Shown one piece after another: positions 2,662 through 64,000 of a stretch of DNA of 64,000 nt (the first letter of the stretch is position 1; each line of letters starts with the position of its first letter). The position numbers and the translations under genes were made by a program. The stretch comes from Lampropedia aestuarii (GTDB lineage Bacteria > Pseudomonadota > Gammaproteobacteria > Burkholderiales > Burkholderiaceae_C): assembly GCF_004803635.1 (NCBI RefSeq), contig NZ_SSWX01000002.1, positions 1 to 64,000 on the forward strand, given 5' to 3'. Below the pieces are notes generated by a model. That model saw only the letters and a program-made list of their open reading frames with translations. It had not been told where the DNA came from and made no database searches.

Positions 2662-4323
2662 TTATTTCAACGCTTTGAAACGCACACGTTTTGGTTGTGC
2701 AGCTTCATCACCCAATCGCTTGCGTTTGTCGGCTTCGTACTCTTGGTAGTTGCCATCAAAGAAAACCCATTGGCTCTCCCCTTCAGCGGCCAGGATGTGC
2801 GTGGCAATGCGGTCGAGGAACCAGCGGTCATGGCTGATCACCAACACGGAGCCGGCGTACTCCAGCAGCGCGTCTTCCAACGCGCGCAGGGTTTCAATGT
2901 CCAAATCGTTCGATGGCTCATCGAGCAGCAGCACGTTGCCGCCCTTGAGCAGGGTTTTGGCCAAGTGCAGGCGACCACGCTCACCACCGGAGAGGTTGCC
3001 CACTTTCTTCTGCTGATCACCGCCGTTGAAGTTGAAACGGCCTGCATACGCACGGCTGGCCATTTGGAACTTGCCCACATTGATGATATCCAGCCCACCT
3101 GAGATATCTTCCCAAACGGTTTTGTCGTCGGCCAGCTCATCACGGGCCTGGTCCACGTAGGCCATTTGTACCGTAGCACCGATATCGACCACCCCCGCAT
3201 CAGGCTGCTCACGGCCAGCAATCAGCTTGAACAGTGTCGATTTACCTGCACCGTTAGGGCCGATGATGCCGACAATCGCACCGGCTGGAATAGTGAAGCT
3301 CAGGTTGTCGATCAGCAAACGGTCTCCAAAGGACTTGCTGACATTTTTGAATTCGATTACTTTGGTGCCCAAGCGCTCGGCCACAGGGATGAAAATCTCC
3401 TGGGTCTCGTTGCGGCGCTGGTACTCGTGGTCTGACAGCTCCTCAAAGCGGGCAATACGCGCCTTGCTCTTGGCTTGGCGGCCTTTGGCGTTCTGGCGCA
3501 CCCACTCCAATTCTTTCTTCAGGGCTTTGGCACGGGCATCTTCGCCTTTTTGCTCAGCTTCAAGGCGGGTTTGCTTTTGTATCAGCCAGTCGCTGTAATT
3601 GCCTTTGTATGGAATGCCGTGGCCACGGTCGAGCTCCAAAATCCACTCAGCAGCATTGTCCAAAAAGTACCGATCGTGGGTAATGGCCACCACCGTGCCA
3701 GAGAAACGCTGCAGGAACTGCTCCAGCCAGTCGACGCTTTCCGCATCCAAGTGGTTGGTAGGCTCATCCAGCAGCAGCATGTCGGGTTTGGACAGCAGCA
3801 GTTTGCACAAGGCAACACGGCGCTTTTCACCACCAGACAGGTTGCCAACAATCGCATCCCAAGGTGGCAGGCGCAAGGCATCAGCGGCAATTTCCAACTG
3901 GTGCTCAGAGTCAGTGCCTGAAGTGGCAATAATTGCTTCGAGGCGTGCTTGCTCAGCAGCCAAGGCATCAAAGTCGGCATCTTCTTCTGCGTAAGCTGCG
4001 TAGACGGCCTCGAGCTTGTCTTTGGCCTCCATCACCTCGCCCATCGCCTCTTCGACGCTTTCGCGCACGGTTTGCTCTGGATTGAGCTGAGGCTCCTGTG
4101 GCAAATAGCCGATTTTCAGGCCCGGCATGGGCAGGGCTTCGCCCTCGATCTCCTTGTCAATGCCAGCCATGATTTTGAGCAGACTGGATTTGCCGGAGCC
4201 GTTCAGACCCAGCACGCCAATTTTGGCGCCGGGGAAAAAGCTGAGAGAAATATCCTTGAGGATCTGACGCTTGGGAGGAACCGTTTTGCTGACACGGTTC
4301 ATCGAATAGACGTATTGAGCCAT
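2662..4323 (-). CDS. ettA: energy-dependent translational throttle protein EttA (ABC-F ATPase)
   Basis: A 553-residue soluble ABC-F protein with two ATPase domains and no membrane segment. Domain 1 shows Walker A GLNGSGKS (39-46), signature NLSGGEKRR, and LLLDEPTNHLD. Domain 2 shows GPNGAGKS, NLSGGERGR, and LLLDEPSNDLD. A charged coiled linker between the domains (around 245-320) is the P-site tRNA interaction motif, and the arm insertion sits in domain 1. EttA binds the ribosomal E site and gates the first peptide bond according to ATP/ADP ratio. Length matches E. coli EttA (555). The gene stands alone and is divergent from rhlE. Confidence 0.95.
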   Translation of the reverse strand: MAQYVYSMNRVSKTVPPKRQILKDISLSFFPGAKIGVLGLNGSGKSSLLKIMAGIDKEIEGEALPMPGLKIGYLPQEPQLNPEQTVRESVEEAMGEVMEAKDKLEAVYAAYAEEDADFDALAAEQARLEAIIATSGTDSEHQLEIAADALRLPPWDAIVGNLSGGEKRRVALCKLLLSKPDMLLLDEPTNHLDAESVDWLEQFLQRFSGTVVAITHDRYFLDNAAEWILELDRGHGIPYKGNYSDWLIQKQTRLEAEQKGEDARAKALKKELEWVRQNAKGRQAKSKARIARFEELSDHEYQRRNETQEIFIPVAERLGTKVIEFKNVSKSFGDRLLIDNLSFTIPAGAIVGIIGPNGAGKSTLFKLIAGREQPDAGVVDIGATVQMAYVDQARDELADDKTVWEDISGGLDIINVGKFQMASRAYAGRFNFNGGDQQKKVGNLSGGERGRLHLAKTLLKGGNVLLLDEPSNDLDIETLRALEDALLEYAGSVLVISHDRWFLDRIATHILAAEGESQWVFFDGNYQEYEADKRKRLGDEAAQPKRVRFKALK

Positions 4324-4695
4324 TTTCTAAAAATTCCTAAAAACACGCTGCAAACAACAGGCATCTTGCAACAACATGCGCATTATCGATGCAAAGTACG
4401 ATACTGCGACAACATAGACGCCATGCCGCACAGGGACAAGTGCACAACAAGGCAGGCAATCGCCATTAAAAAAGCTGCAAAAACCAGCAACCTATGCGAG
4501 AATGGGGGCGTTTTGGGTTTCAGTCGCCCAAAAACACGGTGATTTCGCAGCGTTGGCTTGAGCCTTACTACAAGGTGTATCAACCGCACAATTTAAAAAA
4601 AACAACGCACATCGCCCGGTACTGAACAGCTCTTATCATTTTAGGGGCTGCGGGTAATAACCAAGAAGTCAGCACCTCAGCGTGCCAAATATACA
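4324..4695. other. intergenic region between divergent ettA and rhlE
   Basis: No convincing gene. It must hold the promoters for both divergent genes, but no near-consensus sigma-70 pair is clear. One hairpin (TTTTGGG 4511-4517 with CCCAAAA 4527-4533, 9-base loop) lies about 160 bases before the rhlE start and could be part of a long 5' leader, as is common for DEAD-box helicase genes. Confidence 0.4.
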
Positions 4696-6636
4696 GTGAC
4701 ATTTGAATCTTTAAACCTGTCTGCCGACATCGTATCGGCCGTGGCAGAGCTGGGCTACGCCCAGCCAACTCCTATTCAAGCGCAATCTATTCCGCTTATT
4801 CTGGCAGGCCATGACTTGCTCGCCGGTGCCCAAACAGGCACTGGCAAAACAGCGGCCTTTACCCTGCCTTTGCTGGAACTGCTCAGCCGTGAAGACAACC
4901 GCACCGGCCCACGCCCGGTGCGCGCATTGATCTTGACACCAACGCGCGAGTTGGCCGCTCAAATCGACGACAACATCAAGTCTTATAGCAAGCATTTGAA
5001 AATACAGTCGACAGTGATTTTTGGCGGTGTGGGCATGACCCCCCAAATTAACCGCATCAAAAAAGGGGTGGATATTCTGGTGGCGACTCCTGGGCGCCTG
5101 TTGGATTTGCATGGCCAAGGCTATGTGGATTTGAGCCAAGTGGGCTTTTTGGTGCTCGACGAAGCCGACCGCATGCTCGACATGGGCTTTATCCATGACG
5201 TGCGCAAAGTTCTGGCCCTGCTGCCAGCCCAAAAACAATCGCTGCTGTTCTCTGCCACCTTCAGTGACGAGATCAAGCAATTGGCCAGCACGCTGCTGAA
5301 CAATCCGCAGCACATCCAGGTGACACCGCCCAACACGACGGTTCAACGCATCGCGCAGGTGATTTACCCAGTTGGGCGCCAAAAGAAAAAAGCGGCGCTG
5401 CTGCACATCATCACCTCCAAAGAGTGGAACCAGGTACTGGTGTTCACGCGCACCAAGTTTGGTGCCAACCACATTGCGGACTACCTGAATAAGAACGGTG
5501 TCTCTGCGATGGCCTTGCATGGCAATAAAAGCCAGTCCGCCCGCACCCAAGCACTGTCGAGTTTCAAATCCGGCGAGTTGCGCGTCTTGGTGGCCACCGA
5601 TATTGCCGCACGCGGCATTGACATTGACGAGCTGCCACACGTTGTGAACTACGAAATTCCTAACGTCTCGGAAGACTACGTGCACCGCATTGGCCGCACA
5701 GGCCGTGCCGGCAACGAAGGCCATGCCGTCAGCCTGGTGTGCCTAGACGAAGAAGGCTTCATGATGGAGATTGAGCGCTTTACCAAGCAGGAAATTCCAG
5801 TGGAGATCCTGCCTGAGTTTGCGCCTGAGCCCGATGAAGTGCCCGAGCCGATTGCGATGGGTCGTCAAACCCTGTGGGGTGGTGCGGGCAAGCCGCCCAG
5901 CCGAGACGTCATGCAAGCGGCAGCGAAAGCAGCGCGCAAGGAAATGATGGAGCGTATCAACGCCAAGAAAACGCCCAAACCAGCGCGCAAAAAACCGGCT
6001 CACAACACGGAGCAGCCATTCAATGCCGCCGCCGATGCAGGCGACATGCGCGAGCAAGCCGACGGCGAGTCAGCTGGCCAAAAGCGTCCGCTCGATGCGG
6101 ATGGCAATCCAATCAAACGCCGCAACCGTTTCCGTGCAGGGAAAAATGGCCGTGCCGCTCGCGCCAGTAGCAATGGGGGCAATGACCAGGCACAGGCAGG
6201 CGGCGCAGACACACGCGCTGAAAAGCAAGAGGCGCCGCGCCGCAACAACAACCACGCTGGCAACGGGCAAAACGCAGCGCGCAATGGCAATTCCAGAGCC
6301 AACCACCAAGGTAATCGCTCACGCCAAGGCGGCGGCAATGGCAACAATGGGGGCTTTGGGGGCGGGCAGCAACCGCAACCACGCTCGCGTGAACCAATGC
6401 TCAGAGCCGACGCACATCTGGGTACGCAAACCGGCTTTTCGCTGGCCCCTGCGCAACGCGGCGACAGTGGCCGCCAACCTGACCCGATGCGCACCAGCGT
6501 AGACAGCATGACCGAGCGCAGCCGCAGAGGCAACGGAGGCAACCGTGGTGGCAACCGTGGCCGCTCAGGCGGTGGCCAGGGCATTTCCCCGCTGCAACAC
6601 AGTGGCACCTCTTTTTCCGGCCGCCGTAGACCGTAA
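4696..6636 (+). CDS. rhlE: DEAD-box ATP-dependent RNA helicase, RhlE type
   Basis: 646 residues, GTG start (no better ATG upstream of the conserved [11 protein letters not shown]). Helicase motifs in order: Q motif [12 protein letters not shown], Walker [33 protein letters not shown] box [19 protein letters not shown], then domain 2 with [16 protein letters not shown] and [10 protein letters not shown]. The core ends near residue 400. The remaining 240 residues are disordered, rich in Arg, Gly, Asn and Gln with RGG-like clusters, which is much longer than in E. coli RhlE. It unwinds RNA duplexes in ribosome maturation and mRNA decay; the tail probably gives unspecific RNA binding or condensation. 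Confidence 0.92.
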
Positions 6637-6642
6637 GCCACA

Positions 6643-6676
6643 GCGCTGTCTGCTCAATAATATTGGCAGACAGCGC
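6643..6676 (+). terminator. strong hairpin after rhlE (weak terminator)
   Basis: An 11-bp perfect stem GCGCTGTCTGC (6643-6653) with GCAGACAGCGC (6666-6676) starts 6 bases after the rhlE stop. No T run follows, so it may protect the 3' end or act as a Rho-assisted stop rather than as a classical intrinsic terminator. Confidence 0.45.
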
Positions 6677-6830
6677 CCCGCAGGCAGCCTCTGGAACACA
6701 TGATCAAGATGCTGCCTGATTTTTCAAACAATACGCAGGGCCTGGCTCGTCTGCCTATGTAATATTTTTCTTTTTTGCATCGCTGAAGTACTGGCAGCAC
6801 TGTTGACACACCAGTTTGCCGCCTTGAGCA

Positions 6831-8186
6831 ATGCCCAAAGCACCTATGACTGCTGCGCAAAGCTTGATAATTATCTTTGTTTTGATTGCCGCCAGCGCGT
6901 TTTTCTCGCTGGCTGAAATATCCCTTGCCGCTTCAAGACGCATACGGTTGAGACAGCTGGCAGCAGATGGTGATGCACGCGCACCTCGCGTGACGCAAAT
7001 GCAAGAGCAGCCAGGCGACTATTTCACCGTCGTGCAAATTGCGCAAAATGCCATCTCCATCATGGGCGGCATTGTCGGTGAAAGCGCATTCAGCCCATAC
7101 ATCACCAGTGTCCTGAGCCTGTGGTTGTCTGAGAGCAGCGCGCAAACAGTCGGTTTTCTGGTGTCGTTCCTGACCGTCACCTCGCTATTTATTGTGTTCT
7201 CTGACATTGTGCCCAAACGCATGGGCATGACAGACCCAGAACTGCAGGCGATGCGTGTTTATCGGCTGATGCAGTTTTTCACCACCGTACTCAAACCGCT
7301 GGTGTGGCTCTATAGCAAGATCAGCGATGGCATTTTCCGCATGCTGGGCATGAACACCGTGCGCGATGACCGCATCACCTCTGACGATATTCTGGCAATG
7401 GCCGAGGCCAGCACGCAAGCAGGTGGCTTGGCCCAAAGCGAACAACGCGTGATTGCCAACCTGTTCGACCTCGATAACCGCTTGGTCACCAGCACGATGA
7501 CCTCGCGTGATCGGATTGCTTTTTTCCTGCAAAACGACACCGATGCGCTGATCAGGGCCCGCATTGCAGAAGAGCCCTACTCGACCTATCCAGTCTGCGA
7601 CCGCGATATTGACCATGTGATTGGTTATGTCGATGCCAAAGACCTGTTCCAGCGCGCGCTGAACAACCAGGCGATTTCGCTCAAGGACGAAGGCCTGATC
7701 CATAAAGTCTTGGTCATCCCGGATCGACTCACACTGACTGAAACCCTGGACCAATTCCGCCAGGCACAGGAAGACTTTGCCGTGGTGGTGAATGAATACA
7801 GCCTGGTTGTTGGTGTTGTGACGCTCAATGATGCAATGAGTACCGTGATGGGGGGGTTGATTGGCCCCGACGACGAAGAGCTGATCGTGCAGCGCGATGC
7901 CAACTCCTGGCTGATCGACGGCATCACACCGATTGAAGATGTGGTGTATGCATTGTCGATTGAAGAATTCCCGCACTTTGAAGACTACGACACTTTGGCG
8001 GGTTTTTTGATGGTGATGCTGCGCCGCATTCCCAAGCGCACCGACAGCGTCAACTGGGGCGGCTTCAAGTTTGAGGTGATGGATGTGGACAGCTACCGCA
8101 TTGACCAGGTGCTGGTCACACGCCTGAATGCCCAAGGCCAAAGTCCGGAGACGACACCAGACAACAAGCGGCTCACAAGCGACTAA
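6831..8186 (+). CDS. paeA: CNNM/CorC-family inner membrane transporter, PaeA (YtfL) type
   Basis: A 451-residue protein with an N-terminal CNNM (DUF21) membrane domain (about residues 1-190, three to four helices; motif FFSLAEISLAASR), a CBS pair (about 200-345) and a C-terminal CorC_HlyC domain. Long stretches match what I remember of E. coli YtfL/PaeA (SAFFSxxEISLAASR, GGIVGxxAFSP, DPKRxGM-like, RIPKRTDSV). PaeA exports cadaverine and putrescine in stationary phase; other relatives move Mg or Co. The second Met (6846) aligns better with the usual start than 6831, and neither has a strong ribosome binding site. The gene is single. Confidence 0.85.
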   Translation: MPKAPMTAAQSLIIIFVLIAASAFFSLAEISLAASRRIRLRQLAADGDARAPRVTQMQEQPGDYFTVVQIAQNAISIMGGIVGESAFSPYITSVLSLWLSESSAQTVGFLVSFLTVTSLFIVFSDIVPKRMGMTDPELQAMRVYRLMQFFTTVLKPLVWLYSKISDGIFRMLGMNTVRDDRITSDDILAMAEASTQAGGLAQSEQRVIANLFDLDNRLVTSTMTSRDRIAFFLQNDTDALIRARIAEEPYSTYPVCDRDIDHVIGYVDAKDLFQRALNNQAISLKDEGLIHKVLVIPDRLTLTETLDQFRQAQEDFAVVVNEYSLVVGVVTLNDAMSTVMGGLIGPDDEELIVQRDANSWLIDGITPIEDVVYALSIEEFPHFEDYDTLAGFLMVMLRRIPKRTDSVNWGGFKFEVMDVDSYRIDQVLVTRLNAQGQSPETTPDNKRLTSD

Positions 8187-58049: not shown

Positions 58050-58395
58050 ATGACTTATCTCGCGACGCTCGAGTCCATCGTCATCCCTATGATTGCCCCC
58101 GTGGCACGGACCTGCGCCCACATCACCCACGGCCGTCTTGCCGCAAGCAGCAGCCACCTGTCGGACTTGCCCACCCGTTGGCGTGTATTTGGCACGCGCA
58201 AACATCGGCTTCAACCTGGCCTGCATCGCCATGGGCATATGCGCTGGCGCAGCCTTACGAAAAAAAGCGGGCATTGAACGTTTATGGCGCAATGCACGTG
58301 CCGCCTCAATCCTGGCGCCGACCTCGGATCTCCTACCTGCGCCCATTGGCACAGCACTCTGCGATGCCGAGGCAGAACAACAGGCACCGTCTTAA
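58050..58395 (+). pseudogene. decayed acyl-CoA dehydrogenase-like gene fragment
   Basis: Two frames hold pieces matching the C-terminal half of the intact gene at 60570-61685. From 58050 the peptide MTYLATL, then CAHITHGRLAASSSHLSDLPT, matches MPYFATL and IAHITASRFAESGSALADLPT. After a frameshift near 58180 the second frame reads YLARA (matching YLAKA) and then, after loss of about 40 residues, CAGAALRKKAGIERLWRNAR and ILAPTSDLLPAPIGTALCD (matching CGGAAFRKELGIERLFRDAR and VMAPTSDVLFDKIGTLLCD). So it is a diverged, broken paralogue of the downstream gene. The 5' half is not recognisable. Confidence 0.8.
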
Positions 58396-58506: not shown

Positions 58507-59370
58507 ATGCACACCTCTGCTTATATTCTTGGCGCCGTCGCCTACGCCCCCAAAGTCATCACGATCTGGGAAGGCTTTAAAACCTATTTGGCCGAGCGCG
58601 ACTTTGCCATCGACTTCATTCTGTACTCCAACTACGAAACCCAAGCCGAGGCGATGATTGCTGGCGACATCCAATTCGCCTGGAACTCGCCACTGGCCTG
58701 GGTGCGCACCGAGCGCCTGGCCCGCGCGCAAGGCCGGCAAGCGGGCGTGGTCGTGATGCGTGACACCGATATCGACCTGCAATCGGTGCTGGTAGTTAAA
58801 GCCGAGAGTGCTCTCAACAACCTGGCCGATTTACGCGGCCAGACCGTGGGGTTTGGAGCAATCGACTCACCACAAGCCACGCTGATTCCGCTGGACCATA
58901 TGCAGCATGTCGGCGGCCTGCAACCCCATAAGGACTTCAGCGTACGCCGCTTTGATGTGCTGGGCGGCAAACATGGCGACCACATCGGTGGTGAACGTCT
59001 GGCCGCAGCGGCCATGCTCAAAGGCGAGATTGCCGCCAGCTGGATGATTGCCAAGAACTACAGGGCTTTTGCCAACGAAGGCCTGCTGCCAGCAGGCGCA
59101 ACACGTGTGCTGGACTCTACCGGTTTGTACGACCACTGCATTATGAGCGCAGCACCTGGTGTGGATGCGGCCGTCAGCCAGCGCTTTGGCGATTTGCTGC
59201 TGGCGATGGACTGGAATGATCCACCAGTGCGCGCCTTACTCGAACTCGAAGGTCTCAAGCAATGGCAGCCCGCGCGCACAGAAGGCTTTGCACTGCTGGA
59301 ACGTGCAGCGACTGAACAAGGTTTCTACGATGAACAAGGCCGCATTGTTGCCCAAGACTATCGCTATTGA
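58507..59370 (+). CDS. PhnD-like substrate-binding protein without visible signal peptide
   Basis: 287 residues from ATG 58507; GTG 58429 and ATG 58468 are other in-frame starts, but the first lies in the repeat and none adds a proper signal peptide. Type II periplasmic-binding fold of the PhnD/phosphonate group: AYAPKVITIWEGFKTYL, FILYSNYETQAEAMIAGDIQFAWNSPLAWV, VVMRDTDIDLQSVLVVK, LRGQTVGFGAIDSPQATLIPL. No permease or ATPase gene is near, and the neighbours are enzymes, so it may act as a cytoplasmic ligand-binding or catalytic protein. Overlaps the next gene by 41 bases. Confidence 0.78.
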   Translation: MHTSAYILGAVAYAPKVITIWEGFKTYLAERDFAIDFILYSNYETQAEAMIAGDIQFAWNSPLAWVRTERLARAQGRQAGVVVMRDTDIDLQSVLVVKAESALNNLADLRGQTVGFGAIDSPQATLIPLDHMQHVGGLQPHKDFSVRRFDVLGGKHGDHIGGERLAAAAMLKGEIAASWMIAKNYRAFANEGLLPAGATRVLDSTGLYDHCIMSAAPGVDAAVSQRFGDLLLAMDWNDPPVRALLELEGLKQWQPARTEGFALLERAATEQGFYDEQGRIVAQDYRY

Positions 59371-60544
59371 ATCGCTGGGCTTTGATGCGGGCGCACATTT
59401 GCTGGTCAAACATGCTTTGACCGGCTTGGCCCCAGGCCAAAGTCTGCGCGTCACCAGCCAAGTACCAGGCTGGCAAGCCTTGCTTGCCGCATGGGCGCGC
59501 AGCCAGGGTCACCCACTGCAGTGGGAGCCGGGGCAGCAAGCGGCTTTGCTGCAAACAGGCAGCGCAGAAGCCGGCCGATGGCGCGATGCAGCCCACACCG
59601 GCCATGCCAACCCCAGACTGGACGGCGCGGTACTGGAACACGCACCAGCCGGTTGGGGACTGGCTGCACGCGGCGCGCGCGTCGAAGCCGGCGGGCCGCA
59701 ATGGCATTTTCAACTCGACCACAAACAAGACTTCTGGACCGACAGCGCCGCCGACCTCTACGCCCAGGCCGTGCAAGCACAATGGAATCCGGATACCGCG
59801 CTGGACTGGGATGTGGTGCTGGACCACCCGCCTGAAATCGAAGCGGCCGTCGTACAAGTCATGACCTATATGATCGAGAACGAAAATGCGGCCTTGCTGG
59901 TGCCGGCGCGTTTTCTGGGCCAGCTGCATCCGCACTACCGCGAAATGCAAGCGGCGCTGGCCATGCAAGTGGCCGATGAAGCCCGCCATATCGAGGTGTT
60001 CACGCGCCGCGTACGACTGGGTGGCTCAGAGCCTGCACTGTCCACCGCAGGTGGGCAAACCTCACTCAAAAGCCTGCTAGACGAGCCTGATTTTTCGATT
60101 GCCAGCTTCTTGCTGTCGGTGCTGGGTGAGGGCACGTTCGTTAACCTCTTGCAGTTTTTGCAGGCCTACGCGCCCGACCCCCTGACGCGTGCAATGTGCC
60201 GTTTGGCCGCGCGCGATGAAGCTCGCCACGTCGCCTTAGGCATGTCTCACCTGCTTTACCGCTTGCACAGCGAGCCCGCATTGCGCAGCCGCTTGGCGCA
60301 AGCCGTTGAAGCACGCCACGACCTACTGGCCGGCAGTGCAGGTCTGAACGAAGAAGTGTTTGACTCGCTGATTCTGATTGGCGCTGGCGCGCTGGCCCCG
60401 GCTGCAATCCACACAGGTTTTGAACGTGTGCAGCAGCTGGTGCGCGACATGGGCGATGGCCGTTTTACGCGCCTATTGCGGCTTGGCTTTGAGCGCGACG
60501 AAGCCGAGCGCCTGTCTGCGCTGCACACCCGCAACTTCATGTGA
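59330..60544 (+). CDS. TusA-like domain fused to a ferritin-like diiron domain
   Basis: 404 residues. Residues 9-70 look like a TusA/SirA sulfur-carrier domain (IESLGFDAGAHLLVKHALTGLAPGQSLRV in line with TusA LDALGLRCPEPVMMV), but the catalytic CP pair is AG. A linker (75-130) leads to a ferritin-like four-helix domain with diiron ligands: Glu183/185 in MIENENAA, Glu217-x-x-His220 in DEARHIE, Glu267 in GEGTF, and Glu297-x-x-His300 in DEARH. That points to an O2-using oxidase or oxygenase. ATG 59330 overlaps the preceding gene. No function is known to me. Confidence 0.8.
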   Translation: MNKAALLPKTIAIESLGFDAGAHLLVKHALTGLAPGQSLRVTSQVPGWQALLAAWARSQGHPLQWEPGQQAALLQTGSAEAGRWRDAAHTGHANPRLDGAVLEHAPAGWGLAARGARVEAGGPQWHFQLDHKQDFWTDSAADLYAQAVQAQWNPDTALDWDVVLDHPPEIEAAVVQVMTYMIENENAALLVPARFLGQLHPHYREMQAALAMQVADEARHIEVFTRRVRLGGSEPALSTAGGQTSLKSLLDEPDFSIASFLLSVLGEGTFVNLLQFLQAYAPDPLTRAMCRLAARDEARHVALGMSHLLYRLHSEPALRSRLAQAVEARHDLLAGSAGLNEEVFDSLILIGAGALAPAAIHTGFERVQQLVRDMGDGRFTRLLRLGFERDEAERLSALHTRNFM

Positions 60545-60569
60545 ACACCCAAAAAATGGATAGACGACG

Positions 60570-61685
60570 ATGACTGTTTTAGAGCAACTCGAACCCATCA
60601 TGCGCGAGCTGATCGCACCGCAAGCCATGCACACCGACCGCAGCGCCAGCTACCCGCGCGACGCGCTGCAGGCGTTGGGCCAAGCTGGTTTATTGGGACT
60701 GATCAGCAACCCCACAGTCGGCGGCTTGGGCCACGGCTTACCAGAGGCCGTGCAAGTGGTCGAGCGCATTGCCCAGGACTGCCCCTGCACGGCGATGGTG
60801 CTGACGATGCATTACTGCGGCACAGCCTACATCGAACCACTGGGCCCGCTGGCGGTCCGCCAGGCGATTGCAGCGGGCGAGCACATCACGACGCTGGCCG
60901 TATCCGAGACCGCCACGCGCAGCCACATCTGGGCAATGACCAGTGAAGCCGCAGCGCAAAGCGATGGGCGCGTGCTGATCTCCGGTGAAAAAAGCATGAT
61001 TACCTCTGCTGGCCAGGCCGACTCCTACGTCTGGACCACGCGTGCGATGCAGGGTCAAGGCAATACCTTGTGGCTGCTGAACGCCAAAGACGCCGGCTTT
61101 AGCGTGCCACGCCCCTTCGATGGCCTGGGTCTGCGTGGCAACTACTCGGCCCCAATCAGCGCCCAGCAAGTGCCAACCAGCTTGGCCAGCCGCTTGGGCG
61201 AAGATGGCCAGGCCGAGCCGCTCAAAGCCCAGTACCTGATGCCGTATTTCGCCACCTTGATTGCCACGACCTCCATCGGCTTGATGCAAGGCATTTTGCG
61301 CCGCGCGATTGCCCATATCACTGCCAGCCGATTTGCCGAAAGCGGCAGCGCGCTGGCCGATCTGCCCACAATCCGCGCTTATTTGGCCAAAGCCCAACTC
61401 AAGGCCGAGCAGGCCCGCTTGCTGCGCGACGACACTGTGGCCGCGGTGCTGGCAGCGCGTGCAGACAAAGGCATGCGGCTGCTACAAGTCAAAGCCGCCG
61501 CCGCAGAGGCGGCGCTGGAAGTGTCTGATACGGCGATGCGCATATGTGGAGGCGCGGCGTTTCGCAAAGAACTGGGCATTGAGCGCTTGTTCCGCGATGC
61601 CCGCGCCGCCTGCGTGATGGCGCCAACCAGCGATGTGCTGTTTGACAAGATCGGCACGCTGCTGTGTGATAGTCCCACCTCTTGA
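60570..61685 (+). CDS. acyl-CoA dehydrogenase-like flavoprotein lacking the catalytic Glu
   Basis: 371 residues with the three domains of the acyl-CoA dehydrogenase fold: helical N-terminus (ELIAPQAMHTDRSASYPRDALQALGQAGLLGL), beta domain (TTLAVSETATRSHIW, EKSMITSAGQADSYVWTTRA), C-terminal helices (CGGAAFRKELGIERLFRDARAACVMAPTSD). In classic enzymes the last motif reads RDAKIYQIYEGTS with the catalytic Glu; here that position is Ala351 (APTSD). This is the pattern of flavin monooxygenase-like members such as the DszC/SfnB group. 25 bases after the diiron gene and 9 before selD: one operon. Confidence 0.85.
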   Translation: MTVLEQLEPIMRELIAPQAMHTDRSASYPRDALQALGQAGLLGLISNPTVGGLGHGLPEAVQVVERIAQDCPCTAMVLTMHYCGTAYIEPLGPLAVRQAIAAGEHITTLAVSETATRSHIWAMTSEAAAQSDGRVLISGEKSMITSAGQADSYVWTTRAMQGQGNTLWLLNAKDAGFSVPRPFDGLGLRGNYSAPISAQQVPTSLASRLGEDGQAEPLKAQYLMPYFATLIATTSIGLMQGILRRAIAHITASRFAESGSALADLPTIRAYLAKAQLKAEQARLLRDDTVAAVLAARADKGMRLLQVKAAAAEAALEVSDTAMRICGGAAFRKELGIERLFRDARAACVMAPTSDVLFDKIGTLLCDSPTS

Positions 61686-61694
61686 TTGCACGCT

Positions 61695-62774
61695 ATGAAC
61701 TCTACCCCCTCCTCCAACGCATCCTCCCCACGCCTGACCTCGCTATCGCACGGCGGTGGCTGCGGCTGCAAAATCGCCCCCGGCGTGCTCAGCAGCCTGC
61801 TGGCCCAAAGCAGCCTGCCCAAAGCCTTTTACGAACACCTGTTAGTCGGCACCGAAACCGCCGACGATGCTGCGGTCTACCAAATCAACGAACAACAGGC
61901 GATTGTCGCAACCACCGACTTTTTCATGCCCATCGTCGACGATCCGTTTGACTTTGGCCGCATCGCCGCCACCAATGCCTTGTCTGATATTTACGCCATG
62001 GGCGCAACGCCCTTGTTTGCACTGGCCATTGTTGGCATGCCAATCAATGTGCTGCCGCACACCGTGATTGCGAAGATCCTCGAAGGCGGTGAGTCAGTCT
62101 GCCGCGATGCCGGCATTCCGCTCGCAGGTGGGCATTCCATCGATTCGGTGGAACCCATTTATGGACTGGTAGGCATTGGCATCGTCAACCCGGCCCAGCT
62201 CAAACGCAATGCCAGCGCCCAGGCTGGCGATGTACTGATTCTAGGCAAACCGCTGGGTGTAGGCATTTTGTCTGCGGCCTTGAAAAAGAACATTCTGGAT
62301 GAAGCAGGCTACGCCGCAATGATCGCAGCCACCACCCAGCTCAACCGTCCAGGCAGCAGCCTTGCTGGGCTCGAAGGGGTGCACGCGCTCACCGACGTCA
62401 CCGGCTTTGGCCTGCTGGGCCACAGCCTGGAGCTGGCACGCGGCGCAGGCCTGACGGCAGAAATCGACAGCACCGCCTTGCGCCTGCTGCCACAGGTGCT
62501 TGAGCTCGCAGAACAAGGCATCATCACTGGCGCGTCTGGCCGCAACTGGCAGTCGTATGGCAGCCAGGTCGAGCTGTCAGCCCGTATTCAACGAGAAGGC
62601 AGTGGTGCAACCCAGGGCATTTTGACCGACCCGCAAACCTCGGGTGGACTGCTGGTGGCCTGCGCGCCAGAAGCGGCTCAGCACGTCTTGGAACTCTTTG
62701 CACAGCAAGGTTTTCAAGATGCCGCTATCGTCGGGCGCATGGTGGCAGGAGATGCCAAGGTCGTGGTGCGATAA
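61695..62774 (+). CDS. selD: selenide, water dikinase (selenophosphate synthase)
   Basis: 359 residues from ATG 61695. Makes selenophosphate from selenide and ATP, the Se donor for selenocysteine tRNA and selenouridine. Active-site SHGGGCGCKIAP contains Cys where other organisms have selenocysteine, and the Lys. ATP-binding DDAAVYQIN, TTDFFMPIVDDPFDFGRIAATNALSDIYAMGA, GGHSID, LTDVTGFGLLGHSLE, LTDPQTSGGLL are all present. Last of four co-oriented genes; fdhD nearby fits use in a selenocysteine formate dehydrogenase. Confidence 0.96.
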   Translation: MNSTPSSNASSPRLTSLSHGGGCGCKIAPGVLSSLLAQSSLPKAFYEHLLVGTETADDAAVYQINEQQAIVATTDFFMPIVDDPFDFGRIAATNALSDIYAMGATPLFALAIVGMPINVLPHTVIAKILEGGESVCRDAGIPLAGGHSIDSVEPIYGLVGIGIVNPAQLKRNASAQAGDVLILGKPLGVGILSAALKKNILDEAGYAAMIAATTQLNRPGSSLAGLEGVHALTDVTGFGLLGHSLELARGAGLTAEIDSTALRLLPQVLELAEQGIITGASGRNWQSYGSQVELSARIQREGSGATQGILTDPQTSGGLLVACAPEAAQHVLELFAQQGFQDAAIVGRMVAGDAKVVVR

Positions 62775-62864: not shown

Positions 62865-63491
62865 ATGAAATTGACGAGTCAAAGCATTCAAGACGGCCAG
62901 CCGATTGCTGGCGAGTTCGCGTTTGCCGTGCCCGATGCTAGCAACCACGTCGCGCTGTCGAGCAACCGCAACCCGCACCTGGCTTGGAGCGATGTGCCGG
63001 CTGGCACGCAATCGTTTGTCGTGGTCTGCCATGACCCTGATGTACCCAGCAAAGGCGATGACGTCAACCAAGAAGGCAAAACCGTGCCCGCCGATTTGCC
63101 CCGCGTTGATTTCTACCACTGGCTGCTATTGGATATTCCAGCTGCGACCACCGAAATCCAAGCTGGCAGCCAGGCAGATGGTGTAATTGCTCGCGGCAAA
63201 AGTGGTCCTGCAGCGCCGCATGGCCTGCGCCACGGCATCAATGACTACACCGGCTGGTTTGCCGGCGATGCGCAAATGGGTGGCCAGTATTTTGGCTACG
63301 ACGGTCCTTGCCCACCATGGAACGACTCGATCGTGCACCGCTATATTTTCACCGTCTACGCGCTGGCCACACCTACGCTGCAGGTTGAAGGCGAGCTCAA
63401 CGGCGCCAATGTCAAAGCCGCATTGGCCAAAGCCCAGGTGCTGGGCCAGGCCAGCATCACTGGCACTTACAGCCTCAATACCGCACTGTAA
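62865..63491 (+). CDS. YbhB/YbcL-family PEBP (Raf kinase inhibitor-like) protein
   Basis: 208 residues with a strong AAGGAG box. PEBP fold: HLAWSDVPAGTQSFVVVCHDPDVP, DFYHWLLLDIPA (anion-binding His), GKSGPAAPHGLRHGINDYTGWF, GQYFGYDGPCPPWNDSIVHRYIFTVYAL. Bacterial members have no clear physiological role; they bind anionic ligands and may modulate proteases or kinases. No signal peptide, so cytoplasmic. It converges with fdhD with 3 bases between the stops. Confidence 0.92.
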   Translation: MKLTSQSIQDGQPIAGEFAFAVPDASNHVALSSNRNPHLAWSDVPAGTQSFVVVCHDPDVPSKGDDVNQEGKTVPADLPRVDFYHWLLLDIPAATTEIQAGSQADGVIARGKSGPAAPHGLRHGINDYTGWFAGDAQMGGQYFGYDGPCPPWNDSIVHRYIFTVYALATPTLQVEGELNGANVKAALAKAQVLGQASITGTYSLNTAL

Positions 63492-63494
63492 GTT

Positions 63495-64000
63495 CTATAG
63501 TGTGTAGCGCACCGCCCGTGGTGCGCGCACCAGCCCCCACAATTGCAAACCTGCTGTTTTGGCCACTTGAATCGCCAACGACGTGGGGGCAGAAATCGTC
63601 GCCAACAAGGGAATGCCCAAGCGCGAGCATTTGCGCACCAGCTCATAGCTGGCGCGGCTGGACATCACGACAAACCCCTCATCTGGCCAAGGCTGGCCAT
63701 GCAAGCCCAGCGCCCGCTCAGGGTGCGAAGCACGTGCAGCCAAAGCCTGCGCACGCGCGCCCAACAGCTTGTCCAAGGCATTGTGGCGGCCCACATCTTC
63801 ATATACCGCAATCAATTCACCCTCCGGGCTGGCGAAGCCTGCGGCGTGCACGGCCCCAGTCGCCTTGTTCAAATGCTGCTGCGCTGGCATCGCAGCCATG
63901 GCCTTGAACAGCGTTAGAACATCGACCTGCGCCAACCAAGCGGGGCGTTGCTGCTGGGGTGGCAGCATATCCAAGGCCTGCAAATTGTCGATACCGCAGA
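63495..64000 (-). CDS. fdhD: formate dehydrogenase accessory sulfurtransferase FdhD (N-terminally cut by window end)
   Basis: The C-terminal 168 residues are visible; the frame continues to the window end, where CGIDNLQALDM fits the part just after the FdhD CxxCG motif. Conserved pieces are FASPEGELIAVYEDVGRHNALDKLLGA, VVMSSRASYELVRKCSRLGIPLLATISAPTSLA and IQVAKTAGLQLWG. FdhD moves sulfur from the cysteine desulfurase to the molybdenum cofactor of formate dehydrogenase. Placement beside selD suggests that a formate dehydrogenase is encoded nearby. Confidence 0.93.
   Translation of the reverse strand, partial: CGIDNLQALDMLPPQQQRPAWLAQVDVLTLFKAMAAMPAQQHLNKATGAVHAAGFASPEGELIAVYEDVGRHNALDKLLGARAQALAARASHPERALGLHGQPWPDEGFVVMSSRASYELVRKCSRLGIPLLATISAPTSLAIQVAKTAGLQLWGLVRAPRAVRYTL

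Follow-up and report, generated by a model that had tools for sequence, protein, structure and literature searches.

What do three closely packed genes contribute when they lie directly upstream of selD? In a 64,000-nucleotide stretch of Lampropedia aestuarii DNA (positions 1 to 64,000 of contig NZ_SSWX01000002.1; hereafter the window), the selenophosphate synthetase gene is preceded by genes for a PhnD-fold protein (SBP), a fusion of a TusA-like domain to a ferritin-like diiron domain (FER) and a flavoprotein of the acyl-CoA dehydrogenase fold (ACAD). An earlier reading of this DNA from its letters alone, the sequence-only reading, had described four co-oriented genes with one overlap and two short gaps and had linked them to selenium. 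The coordinates, the frames, the 41 nt SBP/FER overlap and the gaps of 25 nt (FER–ACAD) and 9 nt (ACAD–selD) were all reproduced (Table 1). The dN/dS ratios of SBP, FER, ACAD and selD against Lampropedia puyangensis are 0.063, 0.048, 0.071 and 0.079, respectively, at dS 1.1-1.7, indicating that all four genes are under purifying selection. As described below, gene neighbourhoods and co-occurrence indicate that the three upstream genes probably encode an undescribed step in cellular selenium supply.

To define the conserved unit, we compared gene order at related loci. Relatives of FER number 293 in a collection of 84,980 species genomes, and the best 80 of the 293 were analysed; L026 and L027, which share a strain designation, are both counted. 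The order ACAD–SBP–FER occurs at 71 of the 80 loci, SBP–ACAD–FER at three, SBP–FER at three and FER alone at two (both at contig ends), and the L. puyangensis locus has an extra copy. The conserved core, as judged from gene order, is therefore the three-gene unit ACAD–SBP–FER, referred to here as the cassette.

The genes that recur around the cassette are largely those of selenium use and formate dehydrogenase. When open reading frames flanking the 80 loci, together with part of the window, were clustered without guidance, the commonest groups, after the cassette genes and an antisense or mixed cluster of 36 loci, were SelA and SelB (25 each), FdnH (24), SelD and FdnG (23 each), FdhE (21) and FdnI (19), with MnmH (14) and FdhD (12) ranking lower. 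Cluster names follow our reading of the sequences or, for some, a family search. Among the other clusters, one of 17 resembles a mixture of ABC ATPases, and 10 loci share a short-chain dehydrogenase. Searching the flanks with tblastn gave SelA at 28 of the 80 loci, SelD, SelB, FdnH and FdhE at 27 each, FdnI at 26, FdnG at 25, MnmH at 15, and FdhD and a TIGR04553-type binding protein at 12 each. By this search at least one of selA, selB, selD and mnmH flanks the cassette at 40 of the 80 loci and, among the 60 long-flank loci, at 33, compared with a rough chance estimate of 1-2% (assuming 3-4 loci, 22 kb and 5 Mb). The sequence-only reading had described a four-gene operon ending in selD; the presence of selD in the flanks of only 27 loci rules out an obligatory fourth member.

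The cassette adopts several arrangements relative to these genes (distances at the 80 loci are those between BLAST matches). At 14 loci, in formate-dehydrogenase operons of Variovorax, Hydrogenophaga flava, Rhizobacter, Roseateles and Ideonella, it is inserted between selA and selB, with distances of no more than ~125 nt; a fifteenth such locus, L096, is distant. At 12 loci selD follows co-directionally within ~60 nt (L. puyangensis, Xenophilus and kin, Hydrogenophaga and Methyloversatilis). Elsewhere the cassette is convergent with selD (Luteimonas kin, Novimethylophilus) or lies downstream of selB (Hylemonella, Ideonella). A selD neighbourhood peculiar to this lineage, which would have spoken against the sequence-only reading, is rejected because other genera show selD adjacency in more than one form. 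At three Hydrogenophaga loci (L088, L091 and L101), egtD, senA and senB lie upstream (about 4000-7800) and selD downstream. In L091, SenA (506 bits, cut-off 420) and SenB (444 bits, cut-off 300) are encoded directly upstream with egtD; both are likewise over cut-off in L101, and tblastn finds egtD, SenA and SenB in both L088 and L101. With SenA and SenB both above cut-off, L091 and L101, the two loci to which these cut-offs were applied, qualify as selenoneine clusters. Beyond egtD–senA–senB, all three loci carry a TIGR04553-type ABC transporter, whose binding-protein relative scores 403 bits against a cut-off of 250 in L101, the one locus to which the family cut-off was applied.

We next asked whether genomes that carry the cassette also carry selenium genes, using 50 of the 80 genomes and, as background, 250 genomes from the same order. 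SelD is found in 49 of the 50 cassette genomes and in 179 of the 250 background genomes, and the sole SelD-less cassette genome, L076, is a metagenome-assembled genome that has SelB. Although SelD lies in the flank by construction in 18 of the 50, it is present in 31 of the other 32. The possibility that the gene set occurs mostly in selD-less genomes, named in advance as fatal to the proposed link, is thus not what we observe, and neighbourhood and co-occurrence together support the tie to selenium. SelB exceeds its cut-off in 44 of the 50; at the limit applied to the background (E 1e-70) the counts are 40 of 50 versus 67 of 250, four cassette genomes dropping out there through split matches. 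Outside the flanks, SelB is found in 25 of 31. MnmH is present in 41 of 51 genomes, and every one of the 51 has SelB or MnmH: the six without SelB have MnmH, and the ten without MnmH have SelB. A helper confined to selenocysteine (Sec) or to formate dehydrogenase is ruled out by the 6 of 50 genomes with MnmH but no SelB over cut-off. The presence of SelB or MnmH in every genome, together with the sel, mnmH and sen contexts, argues that the cassette follows selenium use generally and not one product.

The selA–selB, mnmH–selD and senAB loci share selenophosphate and its feed, and the module is therefore best placed at the input. On balance, and with modest confidence, we favor the interpretation that ACAD–SBP–FER is a cytosolic, oxygen-using selenium-supply module acting upstream of selenophosphate synthetase. 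The sequence-only reading had the reverse, with SelD supplying selenophosphate to the cassette, which we consider less likely because the same cassette accompanies three different selenophosphate uses. Predicted diiron and flavin cofactors, and hosts that we take to be mostly aerobic genera, point to O2 chemistry. We infer the substrate, the redox direction and what the TusA-like domain does as follows. In the cytosol, SBP would hold a selenium compound, which FER and ACAD would oxidise or activate in some other way using O2 and flavin, and the TusA-like domain of FER would dock to or receive the product. Selenium would thereby be freed for SelD, and the abundant sulfur analogue would be spared. 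A more specific and rather unlikely version is that SBP is a metal-binding enzyme or ligand-holder and no part of a transporter, and that oxidation of an organoselenium compound by FER and ACAD breaks its C–Se bond, feeding SelD with discrimination against sulfur and providing aerobic bacteria with a missing O2-dependent selenium route. In selenoxide elimination, sulfur analogues undergo such cleavage far less readily. How selenium reaches SelD and is separated from sulfur is poorly understood, and a cassette common to selenocysteine, selenouridine and selenoneine loci, and found in Variovorax, Hydrogenophaga and other culturable genera, is a genetically tractable candidate for the shared entry step.

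The features of FER are consistent with this chemistry. A profile-to-profile comparison of its first 90 residues with 20 TusA sequences of related genomes gives a match (hhalign 94.8%, E 4.8e-8 for this one comparison), against 0.1% for the C-terminal part of FER used as a control; by Pfam alone, the TusA-like match has E 0.12, below cut-off. The TusA CP motif with its active-site Cys is missing, and DAGAH or a similar sequence stands in its place. The FER model (mean pLDDT 86.6) finds its best solved matches in aldehyde-deformylating oxygenase (E 4.9e-5), VlmB and R2lox, and the predicted diiron ligands E183, E217/H220, E267 and E297/H300 are invariant in 53 aligned rows. A stricter text pattern for the diiron site is found in 75 of the 79 stop-free FER sequences, and the four that it misses belong to the 53 rows with invariant ligands. 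Predicted fold and ligand pattern thus indicate that FER is a putative ferritin-like diiron carboxylate protein. The earlier description of a Cys-less TusA-like domain joined to a diiron four-helix domain, for which structure prediction had been proposed as a check, agrees with the profile comparison, the ligand pattern and the predicted fold. The closest named relative, FER of L. puyangensis, is 85% identical.

SBP matches the Pfam Phosphonate-bd profile (E 1.5e-29), and the nearest solved folds to its predicted model (pLDDT 94.3) are PhnD, PtxB, ArrX, HtxB and AioX. Inspection of the window SBP sequence confirms the absence of a signal peptide. In the 75 of 78 relatives where the GAVAY motif was found, it is preceded by 1-22 residues (median 7), with start codons picked by a simple nearest-start rule. 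Lacking a leader and, in the window, an adjoining permease or ATPase, SBP does not qualify as a periplasmic ABC binding protein. The claim that it has no ABC partners holds for the window and fails for some relatives, where tauABC-type genes (L. puyangensis) or a TIGR04553 relative (the 12 loci above) lie nearby. The L. puyangensis genes, a tauABC-type sulfonate ABC transporter directly upstream of the cassette (L024 4863-7741; TauA over cut-off, TauB and TauC below), have no counterpart observed at the equivalent position of the window. Residues H156, D158, E163, H210 and C211 of SBP are invariant in 55 rows, including three Actinobacterial rows, and the Ser/Thr stretch that forms the oxyanion cradle in PtxB aligns with DSPQ. 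The invariant residues may together make up a single metal or selenium site. Since the oxyanion cradle differs from that of the PhnD type, phosphonate, one of the substrates suggested by the sequence-only reading, is not favored; a phosphonate pathway was rejected on the same ground and because no phosphonate-pathway genes were recognised among the recurrent neighbours.

The N, middle and C domains of ACAD match their Pfam profiles above cut-off (43.8, 49 and 61.7 bits). At what we take to be the site of the usual catalytic Glu, 78 of 78 aligned ACAD sequences read M[A/G/S]PT, in agreement with the earlier remark that the third protein lacks this residue, and conservation reaches at least 97% at each of R117, S118, H119 and W121. 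The score of 309 bits against NF049984 (Rv1679/FadE16), under the curated cut-off of 600, indicates a protein related to Rv1679 but belonging to another equivalog. Matches of ACAD (P0003) to the SfnB, DszC and 3-sulfinopropanoyl-CoA desulfinase models are far below cut-off and amount to a weak family theme.

In a phylogenetic tree the window ACAD groups with ACAD2 of L. puyangensis and then with ACADs of Comamonas, Delftia, Diaphorobacter and Acidovorax (100/100). Missed by the sequence-only reading, an ACAD relic lies upstream of SBP in the window, at the ancestral position of the gene. A tblastn search with ACAD finds it as two matches, one of 45 aa at 49% (58050-58175) and one of 62 aa at 55% (58183-58368), a search of the own genome finds it at 58183-58371, and it scores 35.7 bits against NF049984 on model positions 316-366. 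The relic aligns at the DNA level with ACAD1, which is still intact in L. puyangensis (L024 7963-9063), where the order is tauABC-type genes, ACAD1, SBP, FER, ACAD2, selD, PEBP and fdhD, and both ACADs are kept. The tree placement and the upstream relic thus indicate that the working ACAD of the window is a second copy and that the original has decayed. A decaying cassette is present in L021 (11481-12640; genome G084), where SBP is in two pieces and FER, matched N-terminally only, has an internal stop.

Several observations weigh against a role of the cassette in selenium supply. The loci and genomes are related, so that the counts are not independent, and the 50-genome sample was thinned by hand. 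Around 38 of the 80 loci, in flanks that are short in some cases, there is no selA, selB, selD, mnmH or formate dehydrogenase gene, and 27 of the 60 long-flank loci lack a sel or mnmH gene. Most selenium users do without the cassette: full-length FER is found in 4 of the 250 genomes of the order, compared with 179 for SelD, and within the genus the cassette is present in 2 of 10 genomes and SelD in 7 of 10. The remaining five FER hits in the order are four weak ones (L014-L017), in whose short stretches no selenium gene was recognised, and the broken copy in G084; in a draw from the phylum that includes the own genome, 2 of 398 have full-length FER (E 1e-60). In addition, an ACAD–SBP pair occurs on plasmids of three Actinobacteria, on which no FER relative was found. 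The Mycolicibacterium vanbaalenii pair (L106 333-11853) accompanies a radical SAM protein of the Rv1681 family (536 bits, cut-off 380) and, each below cut-off, a deiodinase-like and a TrsS-like protein, and the Rhodococcus opacus pair accompanies DoxX. The Miltoncostaea oceani pair, with SBP at 52% identity, has selD ~6 kb away. The two most distant Actinobacterial SBPs (35-36% identity) have no annotated selD next door in a plasmid gene table that is incomplete. These FER-less pairs suggest that ACAD and SBP may have a wider or different role, and they weaken a selenium-only claim. The Miltoncostaea stretch (L105 1-10841) holds selD, DoxX, an AhpD-like gene, an Rv1681-type radical SAM gene, glycosyltransferases (TIGR04282/TIGR04283-like, below cut-off), ACAD, SBP and a second radical SAM/SPASM gene, and is possibly a metalloid- or selenium-sugar cluster; its third gene, considered as a FER relative, is not one.

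The same evidence bears on other explanations. We think it unlikely that the module acts downstream of SelD as a carrier and protector, with SBP binding selenophosphate and handing it to SelA, MnmH or SenB while FER and ACAD scavenge O2 or peroxide. Selenophosphate is an X–PO3 anion like phosphite or methylphosphonate, proteins with bound phosphate, phosphite, methylphosphonate, hypophosphite, arsenate and arsenite are among the solved folds nearest to SBP, and the cassette's neighbours make and use selenophosphate. However, the D-S-P-Q replacement of the PtxB cradle and the invariant H156, D158, H210 and C211 speak against it, and these four residues are also kept in the two Actinobacterial SBPs with no annotated selD next door. 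Somewhat less likely still, the three enzymes might convert SelD's selenophosphate into an unknown organoselenium natural product. This possibility draws on senA–senB at three loci, on the radical SAM and glycosyltransferase-like genes in the Miltoncostaea ACAD–SBP and selD stretch, and on the azoxy synthase VlmB as a fold neighbour of FER, whereas insertion between selA and selB at 14 of 80 loci, together with occurrence in Sec-using, MnmH-less genomes such as that of L. aestuarii (SenA and SenB were not searched there), argues for a shared input and not for a separate product.

Selenium detoxification, in which the module would oxidise surplus selenide or alkyl selenides, is compatible with the predicted O2-type cofactors and the presumed aerobic hosts, but we judge it improbable because co-directional placement with selA, selB or selD, only tens of bases apart, suggests that the genes would be expressed during selenium use and not under selenium excess. 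Finally, the cassette could be unrelated to selenium and caught near selD and formate dehydrogenase genes by chance, as the 38 loci with neither kind of gene in their flanks might suggest. Such hitchhiking is very improbable given several distinct arrangements in several families, the insertion between selA and selB within a single operon, the selD link kept in SelB-less Hydrogenophaga (L087 and L091) and the presence of SelD in all but one of the sampled genomes without flanking selD. We therefore retain selenium supply upstream of SelD as the preferred role.

How did the cassette come to precede selD in L. aestuarii? SelD of the window scores 426 bits against TIGR00476 (cut-off 125) and is the one SelD match in the own genome at E 1e-30. 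The genome also has selA–selB and encodes a formate dehydrogenase of the Sec type, whose alpha-subunit gene contains a single in-frame TGA, and a genome search gave no MnmH match; SelA, SelB, SelD and a Sec protein together indicate Sec utilisation. No tRNA-Sec was found by ARAGORN in the window and L104 or by Rfam in L104, to which the search was confined. We compared the selD stretches of four (L144-L147) of the five cassette-less Lampropedia genomes with SelD. In L144 and L147 the PEBP gene that follows selD in the window, and adjoins it in L. puyangensis too, is found after selD, and selB is ~3.5 kb from selD; the PEBP gene was not found near selD in L145 and L146. From this neighbourhood we infer the direction of change: the cassette probably joined a resident selD. 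Between selB and selD, L144 (7426-10435) and L147 (3019-6049) encode a membrane protein that we take to be YeiH-like and a large uncharacterised protein. Two Hydrogenophaga genomes (G294 and G295) have weaker second SelD paralogues (292-294 bits) elsewhere. In the window, recQ lies upstream of the cassette on the opposite strand. Farther along the contig, fdhD is followed by genes that are presumably mobB- and moaA-like. A promoter consensus scan was at chance level (1 match versus 1.5 expected) and is uninformative.

Table 1. The cassette, selD and adjoining features in the window
Feature	Coordinates	Strand	Description	Basis
ACAD relic	~58050..58371	+	Decayed C-terminal part with deletions, at ancestral position	tblastn, profile, DNA alignment
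SBP	58507..59370	+	PhnD-fold, leaderless, Rv1680-like	Pfam/NCBIfam profiles, model, alignment
FER	59330..60544	+	Cys-less TusA-like domain fused to predicted ferritin-like diiron domain	Profiles, model
ACAD	60570..61685	+	Acyl-CoA-dehydrogenase-fold flavoprotein without catalytic Glu, Rv1679/FadE16-like, second copy	Profiles, alignment, tree
selD	61695..62774	+	Selenophosphate synthetase	TIGR00476
YbhB/PEBP-family gene	62865..63491	+		Profile searches, neighbour comparison in Lampropedia
fdhD	63495..63998	-	Formate dehydrogenase sulfurtransferase, cut by window end	Profile searches

We found no published description of the cassette in the titles and opening abstract lines of the open-licence papers searched. 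The portions consulted of PMC9312934 and PMC13188914 do not mention acyl-CoA dehydrogenase, ferritin or phosphonate. A close precedent is the set of selenium accessory genes yedE, yedF, LysR_Se and DUF3343, proposed from selD gene context (PMC5322559). In the part of that paper available to us, YedF has a SirA/TusA-like domain, as FER has a TusA-like domain, but the set includes no diiron, ACAD or PhnD-type protein, unlike the cassette, and acyl-CoA dehydrogenase, ferritin, PhnD, TusA and phosphonate are not mentioned in that part.

Each protein of the cassette also has better-known relatives. SBP is related to the binding protein of the putative selenate ABC transporter TIGR04553, whose genes lie near selD or mnmH; SBP (P0001) scores 56 bits against this model (cut-off 250) and is leaderless, whereas the TIGR04553 protein has an N-terminal extension and permease and ATPase genes. 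SBP and ACAD are homologous to Rv1680 (NF049985) and Rv1679 (NF049984), for which no function was found in the literature searched, and to our knowledge Mycobacterium tuberculosis lacks SelD. The Actinobacterial pairs share the MAPT motif and the invariant His, Asp and Cys residues but have DoxX and/or radical SAM genes beside them where the cassette has FER, and the window proteins are below the curated cut-offs (216.5 bits for SBP, cut-off 400). FER shares its predicted ferritin-like diiron fold, and what we take to be the same ligand pattern (E, ExxH, E, ExxH), with aldehyde-deformylating oxygenase, the VlmB azoxy synthase and R2lox; identity is 15-20% among the matches listed, the gene context differs, and we know of no TusA-like domain in these three. 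Finally, SfnB and DszC have the same fold as the window ACAD and are annotated for sulfur scavenging, but ACAD falls well short of both cut-offs, with 50 of 431 bits for SfnB and 42 of 850 for DszC, and carries its own R117-S118-H119-x-W121 motif.

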